DNA of 64,000 bases from Phycisphaerales bacterium Planc_01 (lineage in GTDB: Bacteria; Planctomycetota; Phycisphaerae; Sedimentisphaerales; Anaerobacaceae). Location of the stretch: NCBI GenBank assembly GCA_001603075.1, contig LVBB01000006.1, forward strand, positions 202,181 to 266,180, in the 5' to 3' direction. Position numbers and translations under genes: made by a program. Positions 13,577-27,604 of this stretch are shown piece after piece (position 1 is the stretch's first letter; each line of letters opens with the position of its first letter). The notes under the pieces are model-generated. The model saw only the letters and a program-made list of their open reading frames with translations, was not told the origin of the DNA and made no database searches.

Positions 13577-13643
13577 GTTTGGGCGGCCCGCTCGCGTTCG
13601 CCGCCGGTCACACGATCGTAACCTTATGGTAATGGAGCATTCA

Positions 13644-15296
13644 ATGCCGGACATGCTGCTGATGGCTATCGAGTACGGCGGGTACGTCTCGATCGTCAAA
13701 CTCGTCGTCTTTGTGTTGCTGTATCTCCTCTGGCTCCTCCTGGTCCGCTGGTCCGCCGCTGACGCCAAGGGTGTTGACACGAACATCGGCTTCTGGATCG
13801 GCCTGATTCTCGGGGCCGGGGCTCTGGGCATTCTGCTCTGGTGGCTGATCCCGGTCTTCATCGTCGGTCTGCTCATCTTCCTCGCCGCCATCGGAGCCAC
13901 CGGCCTGGCCTACGTCCGGCACCGAAACACGCGCGTCCTCGACTTCGACCGCGTGCTCACGTTCGAGCACATCAAGAGTCTCGTCGCCGGCTCGGAGAAG
14001 CTCGAAGCGATGGAGAACTTCATGTTCATCACGGCCAACAACAACGAAGTGCCGCGCCCCGAGCCTCGCACGCCGATGTTTTTCGGCTATCGCACGGCGT
14101 ACGATCTGCTCACGGATGCCCTGTGGCGCCGTGCCAGCACGATCACGTTCGCGCCCAAGGGAGACAACTATGAGGTGACGTATTACATCGACGGCGCGGC
14201 GACCAGGCAACCGGCCGTTCCTCGCGAGCAGATGGAACACTTCATCCACTTCGCCAAGGAACTGGCGGCGCTCGACGCCAACGAGAAGCGCAAGCCTCAG
14301 AAAGGCAAGTTCCGCACGCGACACAAGAAGGAGAATGCCGACTGGGAGGTCGTGACCGCCGGATCGACCGCCGGGGAACAGGTCCGACTCAAGCACGTCT
14401 CCAAAGAGCACGATCTGCGAATCAACCAGTTGGGACTGGCCCCCGACCAGCAGGAGCACTTCGAAGGCCTGACGCAAACCCACCAGGGCGTGTTCCTGAT
14501 CTCGGGGCCTCCCAAGAGCGGCATCACGACCACACTCTATGCGTTGCTGAGGAGCCACGACGCGTTCCTGAACAACATCAACACCATCGAGAAGCAGCCC
14601 GCCACCGAACTGCTGAACATCACACAGAACGTGTTCGCGCTGACCGACACGGGAACGACCACGTACGCCAAGAAGCTCCAGTCGATCGTCCGCATGGGAC
14701 CCGACATCGTGGGCATCGGGGAGTGCGAAGACCCCGAAACCGCCCAAGTCACGAGCCTCGCGGCCAAGGATGGCAAGCGGATGTACGTCGCCATGAACGC
14801 CGACAATGTCCTTCAGACCCTCGGCAAGTGGATCAAGATGGTCGGCGACAAGAAACTGATCGCCGAGACGCTGATCGGCATCTGCAACCAGCGCATGATG
14901 CGCACGCTCTGCGAGGAGTGCAAACAGGGATATTCGCCGAACAAGGAGTTGCTCAAGAAGTTCAATCTGCCGGCAGAGAAGGCCAAGGTCCTGTACCGGC
15001 CCGGCAAGGAGGTCTACGACAAGCGGGGCAAGCCGTCCGTGTGCGAGCATTGCCAGGGAACCGGCTACGTCGGGCGGACGGGCGTCTTCGAGATGATCGT
15101 GCTGACCGACGAACTGCGCGCCGCCGTGCGTCAGGTCAAGCAGTTGCCCGAACTCGGGATGCAGTTCCGCCGGGCCAAGATGTTGTATCTTCAGGAACAG
15201 GCGTTGCGAAAGGTGATGGCGGGGAAGACCTCGATCAACGAAATGCTCCGTGTCCTCGCCAGTGCGAAGCAGCAGAGCAATTCGGCATCGCAATAG
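13644..15296 (+). CDS. Membrane-anchored PilB/GspE-like ATPase with degenerate nucleotide-binding motifs
   Basis: 550 aa. The start at 13644 has GGAG 6 bp upstream; ATGs at 13626 and 13632 are alternatives. Hydrophobic stretches at about 14-34 and 50-92 put two or three membrane helices before a soluble GspE/PilB fold, which is unusual because PilB is normally soluble. The Walker A position reads G288-PPKSG-I-T (usual GPTGSGKT), so the phosphate-binding lysine is replaced by isoleucine. The Walker B region (PDIVGIGECED) keeps the glutamate but lacks the usual IRD arginine. The His-box motif (LHTND) reads VAMNADN. The zinc tetracysteine is retained (C414, CEEC, CEHC). It is probably a non-hydrolysing pilus-motor partner or scaffold for PilT. 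Confidence 0.8.
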   Translation: MPDMLLMAIEYGGYVSIVKLVVFVLLYLLWLLLVRWSAADAKGVDTNIGFWIGLILGAGALGILLWWLIPVFIVGLLIFLAAIGATGLAYVRHRNTRVLDFDRVLTFEHIKSLVAGSEKLEAMENFMFITANNNEVPRPEPRTPMFFGYRTAYDLLTDALWRRASTITFAPKGDNYEVTYYIDGAATRQPAVPREQMEHFIHFAKELAALDANEKRKPQKGKFRTRHKKENADWEVVTAGSTAGEQVRLKHVSKEHDLRINQLGLAPDQQEHFEGLTQTHQGVFLISGPPKSGITTTLYALLRSHDAFLNNINTIEKQPATELLNITQNVFALTDTGTTTYAKKLQSIVRMGPDIVGIGECEDPETAQVTSLAAKDGKRMYVAMNADNVLQTLGKWIKMVGDKKLIAETLIGICNQRMMRTLCEECKQGYSPNKELLKKFNLPAEKAKVLYRPGKEVYDKRGKPSVCEHCQGTGYVGRTGVFEMIVLTDELRAAVRQVKQLPELGMQFRRAKMLYLQEQALRKVMAGKTSINEMLRVLASAKQQSNSASQ

Positions 15297-16700: not shown

Positions 16701-16850
16701 TCAGTGGCAGACCGCCAGTTCCTCGACCTCCAGTTCCATCAGGTGTTCGAGATAGGCGGCCAGGTCCTTCTCGGAGAACTCGGCAAGGAACTCGGTCTTG
16801 GCGGTCGCGTTGATCTCACGGATGCGGTCAATCAGTTCCTTCTTGTCCAT
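16701..16850 (-). CDS. Small acidic helical protein, 49 aa
   Basis: Starting at the ATG at 16850, where TTAGGATACTTGGGG precedes it, gives 49 aa: DKKELIDRIREINATAKTEF followed by a second predicted helix with EKDLAAYLEHLMELE. The frame extends to 16901 but the extra residues look non-coding. I have an impression of short homologues with the same layout (ELI.RI..IN..A...FL..F....L..YL.HL) in other planctomycetes, but cannot confirm this here. Function unknown; the fold is likely a two-helix or helix-turn-helix-like bundle. It stands alone between the pilT operon and the gene at 17241. Confidence 0.65.
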   Translation of the reverse strand: MDKKELIDRIREINATAKTEFLAEFSEKDLAAYLEHLMELEVEELAVCH

Positions 16851-17240
16851 CCCCAAGTATCCTAAATGGTGAACAGGGCTCTCGTTCGAGACTTGTGGCA
16901 TATCGGCAGAACCGACCCGATTTCTTTAACGCCGGTTCCACTCGAATCCTCAATGCCCCATAACCGGATGCACGATATGCATTCGCGCCGGCGGTTGAGA
17001 CCACAAAATATTGAAAGCGCAGTGGCAACCGTATGTCGAGAGCAACCACTGTCCAATAAAAGGCCCTCTGACGTGAGGACGCAGGAGGCCAAAATTTCCA
17101 CCCGTCCCTCGTTTTTCGCCGGCGGCCTCTGCTGTCGATCGGTGTGATAGGATGTTCGCACGAAGCCTGGACCTCAAACGGCCGATCGAGTATACTACAG
17201 AAGCGATCCGGACAATGACTGCCGGACAGGATGACACAGG
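16851..17240. other. Divergent intergenic region upstream of the tandem-domain secreted protein
   Basis: 390 bp with no supported gene. AT content rises near 16915-17020. A candidate promoter for the gene at 17241 is listed separately. Confidence 0.4.
17168..17196 (+). promoter_or_regulatory. Candidate promoter of the 17241-18955 pair
   Basis: TGGACC (17168-17173) and TATACT (17191-17196) with a 17-bp spacer, about 45 bp upstream of the start at 17241. The -10 is good and the -35 matches four of six consensus positions. Confidence 0.5.
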
Positions 17241-18431
17241 ATGGCTGCAATGAGAAGGCTCAAACGGGCGCGTGAGAGACACATTTGGGCCGCTCGCCGT
17301 CTGGCGCGCCGCATCGTGACGACGAGCGCAATTGCGGGCGCGCTCCATCTTACTGCCTATACCGGCCCGGCCCGCTCGGCCGAGACGGGCGTTTCCGACC
17401 CACACCGGATTGCCGTGGCCGAAGACACCGACAGGGACTTGCTGACCGACCGCGAGGAGCTAACGCTCGGTTATCTCCCGTTCCGAGCCGATCAGAACGG
17501 AAACGAAGTGGCCGACGGCGCCGAACTGGCGACGCGTTGCGCCAGGGCGCTCGCGCAGTTGCCGTCTCTGACGCAGGTCACCGACAGCGGACAGACCTTC
17601 AAACAGGAGATGTTGGTTTTCGGACTACAGACCTGTGACGTGTGCGGAGAAGCGGTCAACATGGGCGTTATCCGCGTGGTCAATCACGCGCTGGGCCTGA
17701 CCGTCGATATCCCCGTGATTGCGTCGCACTACATGGAGCATGGCTCGTTCAGCTACGGCGGCCAGATCAACCGTGGACGCGTTGAAGTGGCCCGGCTCGC
17801 TCGAGCGTTGAATGTCCGATTCCCCTGCGAGCCGAACGAACATCATCTGCCGCTTGCCCACGTGATCGAAGAGCTTGGGCGGATCGCACCCGATGCCAAC
17901 GACCTGGACGGCGACCTGCTGGCCGACAGCGAAGAGTTGGCCGCCGGCCTGAATCTGTATGACGCCGATCAGGACCACAATCTCGTGCCCGACGGCATCC
18001 AATTGGCCCATCGGTACGCCGAGATCATCGACCGCCTGCCCACGGTCGAACCAGACGAGCCGCAGGCCGCGGGCGTGTACAAGGTCAGCTACATGATGAG
18101 GGGACTGGAATGGTGTGAGATCTGCGGCCAGTCTGTCAATATGGGATATTGGCAGATCGTCAATGCCGCGACCGGCGGGTCGATCGAGATCCCTGAGATT
18201 GCGCGCCACTTCATGGAACACGGTTCGTTCAGTTCGCTGGGGACCCTGCATGGCGGCAGCCGCATCGATGTCGCCGCCCTGCTGGAGACGATCGGATGGC
18301 CCATCGAATGCGGAGATCTCGGCACTGCATACCCGCCCGGCGACCTGAATCAGGACTGCACAGTGGATGCAGAAGACTTCGTCGAGCTGGTGAACTGGTG
18401 GCTGGGCGCAACCGAACCGGACAGCCGATGA
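17241..18431 (+). CDS. Secreted protein with two tandem CxxCG/VNMG/HxMEHGSFS domains and a dockerin-like tail
   Basis: 396 aa with an arginine-rich signal region (about 1-46). Two homologous halves follow. Each starts with an acidic EF-hand or thrombospondin-type-3-like stretch (DTDRDLLTDREE near 61; DLDGDLLADSEE near 222). Each then has CDVCGEAVNMG (C132, C135) or CEICGQSVNMG (C292, C295), and HYMEHGSFS (H163, H167) or HFMEHGSFS (H323, H327). Two cysteines and two histidines per half suggest a metal site, probably zinc or iron. The C-terminus (about 368-390, GDLNQDCTVDAEDFVELVNW) is dockerin-like. I do not know a named family for the repeated unit. Its TGA overlaps the next gene's ATG. Confidence 0.75.
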   Translation: MAAMRRLKRARERHIWAARRLARRIVTTSAIAGALHLTAYTGPARSAETGVSDPHRIAVAEDTDRDLLTDREELTLGYLPFRADQNGNEVADGAELATRCARALAQLPSLTQVTDSGQTFKQEMLVFGLQTCDVCGEAVNMGVIRVVNHALGLTVDIPVIASHYMEHGSFSYGGQINRGRVEVARLARALNVRFPCEPNEHHLPLAHVIEELGRIAPDANDLDGDLLADSEELAAGLNLYDADQDHNLVPDGIQLAHRYAEIIDRLPTVEPDEPQAAGVYKVSYMMRGLEWCEICGQSVNMGYWQIVNAATGGSIEIPEIARHFMEHGSFSSLGTLHGGSRIDVAALLETIGWPIECGDLGTAYPPGDLNQDCTVDAEDFVELVNWWLGATEPDSR

Positions 18432-18955
18432 CCGACCAGGACAAGCCCATGGATGTGCAACCGCATTGGGATGGCAAGATCGAAGCGAAGATTCGAGCCC
18501 TGAAGGCCGTCGATTTCGAGCTGGCGTATCTGGCCTTGCTGACCTACGAAGGAATCAAACCTCTCAGTCGTTGGGAGAAGCCGACTGACGACCGGACATT
18601 GGTCGCGTTACGCGGGATGGGCCTGCACACCGAACGCGTTCGACGAAAAGTGCGTTCCGGCAAAGCGTTCGATGAGACGATCTTCAGCCGAACCTGCATG
18701 CCTCTGGAGATCTACGCCGAACACTTCCGGGATCGGCCCGTGGACAAATCCGCTGAGACGGTCAGGGTCGAGGGGTTCCTTTTCGGCTATCCCCCCTGCT
18801 GCGTCTCGCAGTACGTCCGGCAACCCTATGCCCCCCACGAGTTCCCTATGCAGCAGCAGGAGGTCCTGTTCCACTGGAGCTGCAGAGGGTGCGTCATCAC
18901 ACCTTCGCTGATCCGGCACTACGAACGGATCCACCGCATCGTCCACGCCTTCTGA
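18428..18955 (+). CDS. Cys-rich GYPPCC protein (DUF483-like), coupled to the upstream gene
   Basis: 175 aa, starting at ATG 18428, which overlaps the previous stop (ATGA). This implies translational coupling. The C-terminal half contains FGYPPCCVSQY followed by HWSCRGCVITPSLIRHYERI, giving two adjacent cysteines, a CxxC and flanking histidines. The GYPxCC motif recalls the DUF483 family of small proteins of unknown function; the assignment is tentative. The N-terminal half is helical and charged with no signal peptide, so it should be cytoplasmic, whereas its coupled partner is exported. Both proteins have potential metal-binding cysteines, which suggests a shared metal or redox task (inference). 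Confidence 0.65.
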   Translation: MTDQDKPMDVQPHWDGKIEAKIRALKAVDFELAYLALLTYEGIKPLSRWEKPTDDRTLVALRGMGLHTERVRRKVRSGKAFDETIFSRTCMPLEIYAEHFRDRPVDKSAETVRVEGFLFGYPPCCVSQYVRQPYAPHEFPMQQQEVLFHWSCRGCVITPSLIRHYERIHRIVHAF

Positions 18956-18967
18956 TCGCGCATCTGG

Positions 18968-18995
18968 GGCGGATCGCCCGTCGCCGCCTTTTTTT
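18968..18995 (+). terminator. Intrinsic terminator after the GYPPCC gene
   Basis: GGCGG (18968-18972) pairs with CCGCC (18984-18988) across an 11-nt loop and is followed directly by seven T residues. It ends the 17241-18955 operon 13 bp after the last stop. Confidence 0.65.
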
Positions 18996-23197: not shown

Positions 23198-26100
23198 ATG
23201 GCAACACTGGAAACCCTGCTATCGACGCAGATGATCGAGCGGCTGGGCTGGACGCTGGTCCACTTCGTCTGGCAGGCGGCCGCGGTTGCGCTGCTGCTGG
23301 CGGTCGTGCTGCGATGTCTTCGCCGGAGCAGCTCGAATGTGCGGTACGTCGTCGCGTGTCTGGCGATGCTGCTGATCGTCGCGCTGCCGCTGGTGACGAT
23401 GTCGCTTGTCGAGGTATCGAGGCCCGTCGCGGAGGCGGGCCCGACCCTCAATCCCCCGCTTGTGATGAGGACGACGCCCGTCGAGGTGGTGGAATTGCCT
23501 CTTGAGCCGTTCGACGCGCCGGTTGCGGAGATGCCGGAGCGGGTCGCTCACACACCCTGGACGCAGCGGATCGCCACCATGCTCGAGCCTGCCCTGCCTT
23601 GGCTGGTCTCCGGCTGGCTGCTGGGCGTCTTCGGGCTTTCCGCCTGGCACCTGGGCGGCTGGGCCCAGTTGCAGCGGATGAAACGCCGCATGGTCCGCGA
23701 GGTCACTGCCCCACTGCATGCAGCGCTCGCCGACTTGGCGAATCGCCTTGGCGTCCGCCGGACGGTCGGACTGCTCGAATCGGGGCTCGTCGAAGTCCCC
23801 ACCGTCGTCGGCTGGCTCAAGCCGGTGATTCTGCTGCCTGCCAGCGCACTTTCAGGCCTCAGCACCAAACAGCTCGAAGCCATCCTCGCCCACGAACTGG
23901 CCCACGTCCGCCGCTGCGATTACCTCGTCAACCTCGTCCAAACCGTCGTCGAGATCTTCGGATTCTACCATCCTGCGGCCTGGTGGATCTCGCACCGGAT
24001 TCGGGATGAACGGGAGAACTGCTGCGACGATCTGGCTGTGCAGGTCTGCGGCGATTCGCGACGCTACGCCCGCGCGCTGACCTGCCTGGAAGAGCTGCGC
24101 CACCATAGCACTGAACTGGCGCTCGCCGCCAGCGGAGGCAGCCTCGTCGGGCGGATCGCCCGGCTGCTCGGCCGCCCTGCTGTGGATAACCGCCGCTTCG
24201 CCTGGCTCCCCGGCCTGATCGCCCTGCTCGTCGTCGCCGCCATCCTCATCCCCACCGCCCTGCTCATCGCGGCGCCGACTGTACCACAGCCTTTGAACAC
24301 AGAGGCCGATTCAGCAGAAGCTGCGGGAGACGATAATGTCACACCGACACGACTCGTACATCGGAATGTCGAAGGACGGGTTGACCGCGAGTTCGGGTTT
24401 GAGCAGTTGATCCGCGAGGAAGGAGGTCGGTGGATTGTTGCCATACCCTATTCGACGCAGTCGCTCGGAAAGATGCGCTGCCACATGCGTGCCGACCGGG
24501 GCGAACTATGTTTTGATGGAGCGCTGAACCAGCCCACGCCGGACGGTGGCACATTCCGTGGCAATGTGGTCATTGAGATCGCTTCGAGCGAACCCAACAG
24601 CGTCGATACGTGCACGCTCTATCTGAACGAGGTGACCTTCTCCGCACAGAACAAGCGATTCACCGGTTCCGGACCCGTTCGCCTGGTTGCCGACGCCACC
24701 GAACTGGTCGGCCGAGGACTGGAGTTGTCTTTTGACGAACCACCAGACCTGTCCGATCCGAGCCGACTCACGGTCATTGCCGGAGTCGGCGTGCAAATCG
24801 CCCCCTCGGGCTCTCTGATCGTCTCGCTCGTGGAGCCCAAGATAGAGGTCTCGGAGAAATCTGCATCCAGGCAACCCGCGTCGGTCCGCGCGCGGACCGA
24901 AACGGCTGACAGTCGCGCACCCTCACCGGATGAGAAGCCCAGGGTCATGCTGGATATTGAGCCGAGTGCTGACGCAGCAGACCGCCAAGTACTGCTGAGC
25001 TTCACCATGGCGGAAATCGTAACGGAAGAAGCACTGGATCGTGCCACGGCCCGACAGCTTCGTGCCCTTCTCACCGACGCATCGCCCGACGCCAAATTCA
25101 ATCTACCAAGCGTGGAAGAGCTCCAGAAGCCCGTACAGTATATCGTCAGCAAATACGCGAACATCTGCAACCAAATAGATGACGCCGCCAGAGCCTTCAC
25201 CGATCTGCTGGTGTCACGGGGTTATGCGACCGTATGTGACAGCCCTGAAATGCTGATCCGCCTCGGCGAAAGCGGTCACCTCAGGGTCATGGGACCTCCG
25301 GCGCCTCCCAGCCAGACGGACAATTCTGCTCTGAGTCTGGATGTGACACCGACCGCCCCGCATGACGCCTACGGCATCCAGCTTACTCTGGCACTGCGTG
25401 CAAGAAACCTGGTGTCCCTCGACTCGGAGGGCAGGTTCTCCGCGAGGGCAGCCTACGCCAGCTTCGATCTCGCGCTATCTGCCCGGAATAAGCAGTGCGT
25501 CATGCTTACTCTGACCACGGCCGTCGCCCTTGATGCGAAGACCACAACGACTCTGTTGTTGGTCAAGCCGACCCTCATCGAGCCCCCCGCTGCCTCTGCG
25601 CTCGCGCCGTCCGCCTCCGAGCGGGCAACCGCCGACGCGGCTCGCGAATTCGTCCGGACCGATCCGATGGTCCGCGAGTTGGCGAAGAGAATCGCGGAGA
25701 TAGAAATCGAATTGCTGGAAGCGCAGCAGACGTTCCTGCCGGAGCATCCCGAAATCGTCCAGAAGAAACAACTGCTCGAAGCACTCCGCCGCCGGCTGGA
25801 CGAGCGACGCCGCGAACTGCAGCAGGAACTCGACGATGACCTCGCCACACGTCTGCCTTCCGTCCGCGTGTCAACCAAAACGCCAGATGACCGTGCGTCC
25901 TCACGGGATGACAAGCCCAAGGTCATGCTGGATATCGAGCTGGTCAAGTTCCTGACGGACCGGCCACTGAGTCCTGAGGCAGCGACACAGTTGTCGGGCC
26001 TGTGGGACCAGATGTACGCAAGGCGAGAAACCGGACGAGAGCAGCGAGGTTCACTTCCGCGTGTGGACGAGTTGCAGATTTCGCCTCAGGCTCTGCTCGA

Positions 26101-27604
26101 ACGCTGCACCGCGAATGCGCAAGGAGACTCGGAGGCACTGAAGATCCTGGTCGATCTGCTGGCATCGCGCGAATACTTGAAAGTCGTCATGAAGCCAAGG
26201 GTGGAGGTCTTTGACGGCCAGCAGGCACAGGTCATGAGCAAACAACACGTGCCGAATCCGACCGTCCAACCCGGGGCGCCAGAGACGGTCGAATGCCGCG
26301 ATCTTGTGACGGTCACGCCTCGCATCGATAGCGCCGGTCATATCACCTTGGACCTTGCGGCGGAGATCTGCGACGTCATACTGAACGACAGCAAGACGCC
26401 ACGCATCAGCAAGCACAGCATCGACACCAAGGCCGTCGTGGACAAGAACAAAACGTTCGTCTGTCGCCTGGAGTCCACTGCCGAAGGAGAGACGCAAGAC
26501 AACGGGGTCCTCTACCTCCTGGCCCACCCGCGCGTTATCCGATCCGCGCCATCCGCCGCCGTTGCGATCCCGACTGCGGAATCCGAGCCCTCAGGGCTGG
26601 CTACGGTGACCGCAACGTTCGAGGGCACGGACTTGCTTCAGGCCCTCGAAACGGTGGCCGAAATGGCGGGGGCCAATATCATGTGCGATGCGAATCTCTC
26701 CGGCGAAGTCTATGCCACACTTGACGATGTGCCTATTGAGACGGCCCTCCCCGTAATGCTCGCTGGCAGCCCGTACGTCGCGACGAGGACACCGGACGGG
26801 TATGCCGTCACGAGGCGGAATGCGCAGCCTCCCACAGCACCAAGCCGGGAAGTAGACGCCGTCGCAATCGAGACGCGGTTCGTGCTGGTCGATCCCGAGT
26901 TCCTGGACGCACTGCGGCGTGGGTTGCCGATCAAAGGCGTTACCGCACCGGCCGACGCCAACGCGCTGCACGCGCTGGGCGACGACCTCGTCGCCGGTCG
27001 CACGCCACTTCTGGAACCCGACCATGTCCAACTGCTCCTGCAAGCGGTCCGGCAGTATACGGCCAGCAAGATGTTGGCCACACCAAAGGTGACCGTGCTG
27101 GACGCCGAATCCGCGAACATCCGTATTGGGGAACCGATGAACTACGTCAGCGGGTACCGCGAGCCCAACGACGCGTCACAAGAGCCGATCCCGCAGCACG
27201 CCTCGAAGGAGATCGGCATGCGACTCGACGCGACGCCGCACCTCATCGACAACCAGAACAACATCCGTCTTCAGTTCGAGATGGAGATCAACTCGCTGCT
27301 CGGGATGCAGAAGGCCCTGTACAGGGGCAAGTACGAGTACGACGTTCCCACGTTCACGGCCGTCACCGTTGACACCGAGATCGTCATACCCGATGGACAC
27401 ACCGCCCTGATCCACGTAGGACCCATACGCCCGTTTGGCGACATCCTCAGTAACGAAAGCGACCCGCCCGCGCCGATGCTAATGCTCATCAAGTCCACCC
27501 GAACACCGGTCCGGCCCCCCGACCCCACAGCCCCCATGCCCAACAACCCCCACCCCGGCGACCCCGGCATGGGTGCCCTGCCGTCCGGCGCGAGTCTACG
27601 GTAG
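23198..27604 (+). CDS. BlaR1-like M56 metallopeptidase fused to LptC-like, coiled-coil and secretin-like modules
   Basis: 1468 aa. Residues 15-330 form an M56 membrane protease with several helices, the zinc motif HELAH (near 232) and RDERENCCDDLAV. A final membrane helix lies at about 335-360. The rest should be periplasmic. Region 380-548 recalls LptC/OstA-type repeats (FTGSGPVRLVADATELVGRG). Two internally duplicated regions start with MLDIE and lie near 581-795 and 907-1115, each ending in a secretin-like strand pattern. A helical segment at 820-880 has the Wzz-like FLPEHPEIVQKKQLLEAL. Residues 1135-1208 resemble an STN/secretin N domain (DLLQALETVAEMAGANI). Residues 1222-1442 resemble a secretin C-terminal domain (LATPKVTVLDAESANIRIGEP, IPDGHTALIHVGPIR). 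This is an extraordinarily elaborate sensor for a BlaI partner. Confidence 0.8.
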   Translation: MATLETLLSTQMIERLGWTLVHFVWQAAAVALLLAVVLRCLRRSSSNVRYVVACLAMLLIVALPLVTMSLVEVSRPVAEAGPTLNPPLVMRTTPVEVVELPLEPFDAPVAEMPERVAHTPWTQRIATMLEPALPWLVSGWLLGVFGLSAWHLGGWAQLQRMKRRMVREVTAPLHAALADLANRLGVRRTVGLLESGLVEVPTVVGWLKPVILLPASALSGLSTKQLEAILAHELAHVRRCDYLVNLVQTVVEIFGFYHPAAWWISHRIRDERENCCDDLAVQVCGDSRRYARALTCLEELRHHSTELALAASGGSLVGRIARLLGRPAVDNRRFAWLPGLIALLVVAAILIPTALLIAAPTVPQPLNTEADSAEAAGDDNVTPTRLVHRNVEGRVDREFGFEQLIREEGGRWIVAIPYSTQSLGKMRCHMRADRGELCFDGALNQPTPDGGTFRGNVVIEIASSEPNSVDTCTLYLNEVTFSAQNKRFTGSGPVRLVADATELVGRGLELSFDEPPDLSDPSRLTVIAGVGVQIAPSGSLIVSLVEPKIEVSEKSASRQPASVRARTETADSRAPSPDEKPRVMLDIEPSADAADRQVLLSFTMAEIVTEEALDRATARQLRALLTDASPDAKFNLPSVEELQKPVQYIVSKYANICNQIDDAARAFTDLLVSRGYATVCDSPEMLIRLGESGHLRVMGPPAPPSQTDNSALSLDVTPTAPHDAYGIQLTLALRARNLVSLDSEGRFSARAAYASFDLALSARNKQCVMLTLTTAVALDAKTTTTLLLVKPTLIEPPAASALAPSASERATADAAREFVRTDPMVRELAKRIAEIEIELLEAQQTFLPEHPEIVQKKQLLEALRRRLDERRRELQQELDDDLATRLPSVRVSTKTPDDRASSRDDKPKVMLDIELVKFLTDRPLSPEAATQLSGLWDQMYARRETGREQRGSLPRVDELQISPQALLERCTANAQGDSEALKILVDLLASREYLKVVMKPRVEVFDGQQAQVMSKQHVPNPTVQPGAPETVECRDLVTVTPRIDSAGHITLDLAAEICDVILNDSKTPRISKHSIDTKAVVDKNKTFVCRLESTAEGETQDNGVLYLLAHPRVIRSAPSAAVAIPTAESEPSGLATVTATFEGTDLLQALETVAEMAGANIMCDANLSGEVYATLDDVPIETALPVMLAGSPYVATRTPDGYAVTRRNAQPPTAPSREVDAVAIETRFVLVDPEFLDALRRGLPIKGVTAPADANALHALGDDLVAGRTPLLEPDHVQLLLQAVRQYTASKMLATPKVTVLDAESANIRIGEPMNYVSGYREPNDASQEPIPQHASKEIGMRLDATPHLIDNQNNIRLQFEMEINSLLGMQKALYRGKYEYDVPTFTAVTVDTEIVIPDGHTALIHVGPIRPFGDILSNESDPPAPMLMLIKSTRTPVRPPDPTAPMPNNPHPGDPGMGALPSGASLR

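Follow-up and report, generated by a model that had tools for sequence, protein, structure and literature searches.

Dedicated maturation partners, which work in the cytosol on one exported or modified substrate, are represented by the chaperones of twin-arginine translocation (Tat) substrates and by the modifying enzymes of ribosomally synthesized and post-translationally modified peptides (RiPPs). As described in PMC4239114, NleE is an S-adenosylmethionine (SAM) enzyme that methylates a zinc-finger cysteine; it holds SAM via Arg107 in the loop after strand 1, Glu191, and Tyr212 in the last helix, and its discoverers considered its fold unlike known methyltransferase classes. According to a paper on Thermus phages (PMC11437467), DUF483 accompanies a radical-SAM gene and is also seen in fusion with methyltransferase or radical-SAM domains. 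The two genes considered here, P0001 and P0002, are located in a 64,000-nucleotide stretch (the window) of contig LVBB01000006.1 (positions 202,181 to 266,180) from Phycisphaerales bacterium Planc_01 (assembly GCA_001603075.1), and encode an exported protein of two repeat units and a cytosolic protein with GYPPCC and HWSCRGC motifs. Since the two are fused in other phyla and split in planctomycetes, the best reading of the sequences is that the P0002 domain and the exported repeats are one functional unit. Tentatively, and with a probability put a little below even, P0002 is proposed to act in the cytosol on the CxxC/HxxxH repeats before their export, the two genes being the halves of this unit. 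P0002 would resemble Tat-substrate chaperones and RiPP modifiers as a dedicated cytosolic partner, and differs from them in that its domain is mostly fused in cis ahead of an internal signal peptide. The features of the two genes are:

17241..18431, + strand: P0001, exported two-unit protein of 396 residues, real start probably at 17250
17250..17381, + strand: probable signal peptide with a long basic n-region, a hydrophobic core and ARSA before the mature part; presumed cleavage point; relatives are laid out alike
17403..17840, + strand: unit 1, a Ca-loop-like stretch and a helix, then the CxxC/HxxxH domain
17634..17645, + strand: C132-x-x-C135 of unit 1, both Cys invariant in 142/142 units
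17727..17741, + strand: H163-x-x-x-H167 of unit 1, first His in 142/142 units, second in 125/142
17901..18305, + strand: unit 2
18114..18125, + strand: C292-x-x-C295 of unit 2
18207..18221, + strand: H323-x-x-x-H327 of unit 2
18336..18413, + strand: dockerin-like C-terminal segment, below the Pfam cut-off (13.4 bits against 22.9)
18428..18955, + strand: P0002, cytosolic protein of 175 residues
18785..18802, + strand: GYPPCC (C124, C125), Cys invariant in 66/66 rows
18872..18892, + strand: HWSCRGC (H149, C152, C155), Cys invariant in 66/66 rows, His in 65/66

The first-pass annotation had described a coupled pair of proteins from families without a known role, with cysteine/histidine sets of a kind that may bind metal, and fusion of the two in other phyla makes this coupling much stronger than it then appeared. 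Among named genomes, 66 loci were identified, comprising 31 planctomycete loci, 34 labelled as other phyla (Cloacimonadota, KSB1, Latescibacterota, Zixibacteria, WOR-3, Stahlbacteria, Calditrichota, Verrucomicrobiota, Bacteroidetes, Myxococcota and unnamed bacteria) and one distant locus (L123), which has a distant GYPPCC protein and no units. The unit gene lies directly upstream of P0002 in 29 of the 31 planctomycete loci, and is absent from that place at L059 and L062. A single fused open reading frame (ORF) is present in 31 of the 34 loci from other phyla, and consists of an N-terminal P0002 domain, a hydrophobic segment, one to seven units and, mostly, a tail. This order, with the P0002 domain first, is the reverse of that of the separate planctomycete genes, in which the units come first, and simple read-through was therefore rejected as the cause of the fusion. 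Split forms occur at two Myxococcota loci, where units without a visible signal peptide precede P0002, and at one Calditrichota locus (L112), where the frames overlap and the split may be a frameshift. In a tree of the 66 P0002 rows, the 32 planctomycete rows form one clade (99/97), and the Myxococcota pair and one Calditrichota row are separate split forms. All 57 unit matches found in 20 other genomes are in open frames that fit a fused ORF or an operon partner.

Conservation of the gene pair in other genomes is also borne out by its co-occurrence. Relatives that match most of P0001 were present in 16 of the 61 genomes searched, where other matches cover the tail only, and P0002 was present in 17 of the 61. 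Family-wide, 33 of 89 genomes carry P0002 and 31 of 89 carry the CxxC/H part of the unit; 30 genomes have both, 3 have P0002 only, 1 has units only and 55 have neither (Fisher p 3.6e-19, kinship not corrected). The P0002-only genomes are G002, G029 and G373, the last holding a fragment with a stop, and the contig of the units-only genome, G007, ends just past P0001. The pair has a patchy distribution inside genera, suggestive of gain and loss. At L042 and L055 the P0001 gene is absent, and an intact P0002 stands at the same place upstream of an EF-G-like gene.

No curated family claims either protein, as had been surmised: no match above a cut-off came from comparing P0001, P0002 and single units with Pfam, NCBIfam, PHROGs and PDB sequences, and no paper on the P0001/P0002 pair was among those listed by literature searches on DUF483, DUF1896, 2guk, NleE, TSP3/dockerin and internal signal peptides. 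The tandem unit of about 160 residues was seen as first described, each copy holding a Ca-loop-like Asp/Glu stretch, CxxCG, NMG and HxMEHGSF, and the copies are in register with C132/C135 and C292/C295 160 residues apart. These motifs are more than chance because they are conserved across 142 units, in which both Cys and the first His never vary and the Met occurs in 141; the second His is present in 63/63 planctomycete units and 62/79 elsewhere. Pairwise dN/dS (ratio of nonsynonymous to synonymous substitution rates) for P0001 was 0.23-0.27 (2 pairs). In the model of P0001 (predicted local distance difference test, pLDDT, 80.3), a CxxC knuckle leads to a hairpin, after which a short helix (159-165) bears H163 and H167 close to its end. 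Treble-clef or ribbon zinc fingers combine a CxxC knuckle and a hairpin with a helix that supplies two more ligands, a layout to which the model may correspond; the P0001 model had no PDB match with a Z of at least 5. P0001 shares D-x-D-x-D loops and a DLNxDCxVDxxDF segment with bacterial TSP3-type Ca repeats and dockerin-like tails, but lies under the cut-offs of those families, and its CxxC/HxxxH domain is outside them. The Dockerin_1 (PF00404) match, at residues 366-391, falls short of the gathering score as listed above, and TSP3_bac (PF18884; Pfam cut-off 25 bits) was unlisted at E 1 for P0001; the fused relative L089 scores 33.6 against it. A search of 294 phylum genomes for unit relatives outside the pair gave a match in 74, and among the matches listed the CxxC part was reached by the window's own only, the others covering the Ca-loop part. 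Matches of the unit profile to eL43 (E 0.02 and up) were discarded, as they seem to reflect no more than a shared CxxC knuckle. The P0001 relative at L054:6184-7793 (- strand) is interrupted by a frameshift, and beyond its dockerin-like tail the second half continues into an additional domain of about 130 residues; a 156-residue protein at L179:1507-1974 (- strand) carries a distant CxxxxCG...HxxxxH relative of the unit.

In P0002, both cysteine motifs noted at first reading are present, and the polar residues K44, S47, R48, R73, E83 and Y96 are invariant in 66/66 rows; E115 occurs in 63/66, and position 129 is aromatic in 66/66 (Y 38, F 28). The dN/dS of P0002 was 0.09-0.31 (21 pairs, dS saturated in several). 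The structure, predicted with confidence (pLDDT 94.1), has an alpha/beta core. VIA-align placed 2guk first (Z 10.2, root-mean-square deviation (rmsd) 3.2, 107 of 111 residues aligned) and NleE (PDB 4r29) second, with weak values under the tool's caution line (Z 6.1, rmsd 4.9, 111 aligned, model residues 15..136); all remaining matches had a Z of 3.6 or lower. The best match, 2guk (DUF1896), is a P. gingivalis protein without an assigned function; the match ends at residue 134, and the C-terminal CxxC part of P0002 has no counterpart in it. With DUF483 (PF04467) P0002 shares the GYPxCC helix-start motif, but the likeness is confined to the motif region: P0002 scored 12.6 bits against a gathering score of 25, with no match in its own genome, and the best relative, L100, reached 21.2 bits, every protein scanned being under the 25-bit cut-off. 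Among viral proteins the best fold match (E 0.011, prob 0.99) is probably phage phiAGATE gp028, whose identity with L0LAF6 is deduced from its length of 225. This protein (L184:34533-35210, - strand; phrog_22464, a family without an assigned function) has LLGYP, like the FGYPPCC of P0002, without the CC. A tblastn search for phage relatives gave no match for the L100 domain or for L123.

That one protein is exported and the other is not was upheld: P0001 has a basic N-terminus, a hydrophobic stretch and ARSA, and P0002 has neither a hydrophobic signal nor a membrane segment. In the fusions, the segment between the P0002 domain and the units is uncharged over 10-21 residues (31/31), and by a crude count the net charge before it is positive in 30/31. 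Many of these segments end in an A- or S-type cleavage context immediately ahead of the DxH at which the repeats begin, and L100 reads LLLTGC there, a lipobox. A type IX secretion system (T9SS) sorting tail (TIGR04183) was above the NCBIfam cut-off of 23 bits in 10 of 15 fused proteins scanned (2/5 and 8/10), a result that concerns the fusions and not P0001. The T9SS tails of the fusions and the dockerin-like tails of the planctomycete proteins indicate that the repeats end outside the cell. T9SS cargo cannot remain attached to the inner membrane, so the fusions are probably cleaved at their internal signal peptide. The signal-less units beside P0002 at the two Myxococcota loci indicate that both parts can meet in the cytosol.

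Under cytosolic action, P0001 would be an export precursor whose repeats join a Ca-loop-like segment with a zinc-finger-like CxxC/HxxxH domain and which ends in a surface-type tail. P0002, with a putative Cys4 site of its own and a 2guk/NleE-like core, would act on the repeats while the precursor is inside, either by modifying them as an enzyme or by loading or holding the metal site, and the repeats would then exit through Sec. In the other phyla the acting domain would be supplied in cis, N-terminal to the internal signal peptide, from which it would be cleaved upon export of the repeats. The order of inside domain, hydrophobic segment and outside repeats in 31/31 fusions would also suit a lasting N-in membrane protein that senses Ca, metal or a surface through its outer repeats and relays this by way of the inner Cys4 domain. 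Such a relay is rather unlikely, as the planctomycete halves are separate and P0002 lacks a membrane segment, and as the T9SS and lipobox signals imply that the protein is freed from the inner membrane; the reversed fusion and operon order, the near-exclusive pairing and the two signal-less Myxococcota loci favour cytosolic action over it. An unlikely alternative, given slightly more credence, is that P0002 is an escort only, which keeps the repeats unfolded or in apo form and sets the time of their export without any chemistry, like a Tat-substrate chaperone. The in-cis fusion directly ahead of the signal peptide and the dedicated partner gene fit an escort as they fit the favoured cytosolic action, but the six polar residues invariant in P0002 resemble an active site more than a holding surface. 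Co-transcription of the genes without a common job is very improbable and close to refuted by the fusions: unrelated genes ordinarily overlap too, and two genomes have an intact P0002 alone, but reverse-order fusion in many phyla and near-exclusive co-occurrence speak against it.

Given the NleE likeness of the predicted structure, SAM chemistry is the boldest version of P0002 action, and is possible. That P0002 is a SAM-dependent modifying enzyme, possibly one that methylates the zinc-finger-type Cys in the units as NleE does its substrate, is doubtful, and a still lower probability is given to the specific proposal that an NleE-fold enzyme methylates such Cys of its own exported repeat protein, either in cis, within one polyprotein that has an internal signal peptide, or in trans, encoded by the next gene. 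NleE stands clear of the next match in the VIA list, and three strands occur in both proteins. By element order, and not by residue-level superposition, Arg107, Glu191 and Tyr212 would have their counterparts in R48, which closes strand 1, in E115, on the helix that precedes the last core helix, and in Y/F129, on the last core helix itself. The partner units are CxxC finger-like, as is the NleE substrate, and the weak sharing of GYPxCC with DUF483 brings in a family reported in fusions with methyltransferase or radical-SAM domains (PMC11437467). Against this, the Z and rmsd are weak and there is no sequence match; P0002 has an added Cys4 site, which the sections of PMC4239114 consulted do not describe for NleE, as well as a C-terminal part, and its partner is in its own cell whereas NleE has a host target. 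The weak structural score also tells against the proposed cytosolic action itself, as do several other points. Foldseek with the P0002 model gave no PDB hit under E 0.001. G002 (99% complete) and G029 retain an intact P0002 although the unit was detected nowhere in either genome, and pairs involving their P0002 have dN/dS of 0.14-0.31, so P0002 may have another use. The weak unit relative at L179 (E 1.7e-6), from a genome of the Myxococcota class searched, neighbours an NqrF-like gene, and the 3.2 kb covered there contain no P0002. Clustering of 536 neighbour ORFs revealed no conserved third gene, since only lineage-local neighbours recur. All 66 named loci are metagenome bins, and some phylum labels may be wrong.

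The P0001 start is more probably 17250 than 17241, since MRRL, MRKL or MKRL stands at the place of the window ATG 17250 in 17/17 of the full-length relatives listed. The pair had been called an operon coupled by an ATGA overlap with a shared terminator and promoter. The overlap of the two ORFs, with P0002 downstream, agrees with that description, and the case for a two-gene operon rests mainly on it. Two further sites were found:

18968..18985, + strand: terminator-like hairpin before a T run, count at chance level
17168..17196, + strand: weak promoter-like site, 9 of 12

These sites are weak evidence for the operon, because 2 terminator-like sites were found against 2.3 in shuffles and 2 promoter-like sites against 0.6.

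Three other ORFs of the window were noted. A 49-residue ORF (MDKKELIDRI...) at 16701-16850 (- strand) has counterparts of 66-97% identity near P0001 in 7 of the 9 loci compared, and is probably a small gene without an assigned function. An ORF at 13626-15296 (+ strand), named GspE/PilB-like by eye, has N-terminal hydrophobic segments; its relatives match P0002 weakly (E 0.065 to 0.5 at five loci, E 0.001-0.002 at two), which is probably chance. A 1468-residue ORF at 23198-27604 (+ strand) combines, by eye, a start like a BlaR1/M56 membrane peptidase with secretin-like end stretches, an unusual combination.

Two undescribed domains, one cytosolic and one exported, are thus linked over about ten phyla and mostly fused across a signal-peptide-like segment. 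The pair points to a pre-export maturation step without a name, gives both families a testable job, and makes P0002 a possible relative of the NleE fold. If NleE-type methylation were true, it would give an own-cell role to a fold whose only enzyme known so far is an injected effector, and many uncultured phyla would have a new type of protein maturation ahead of export at their cell surface.
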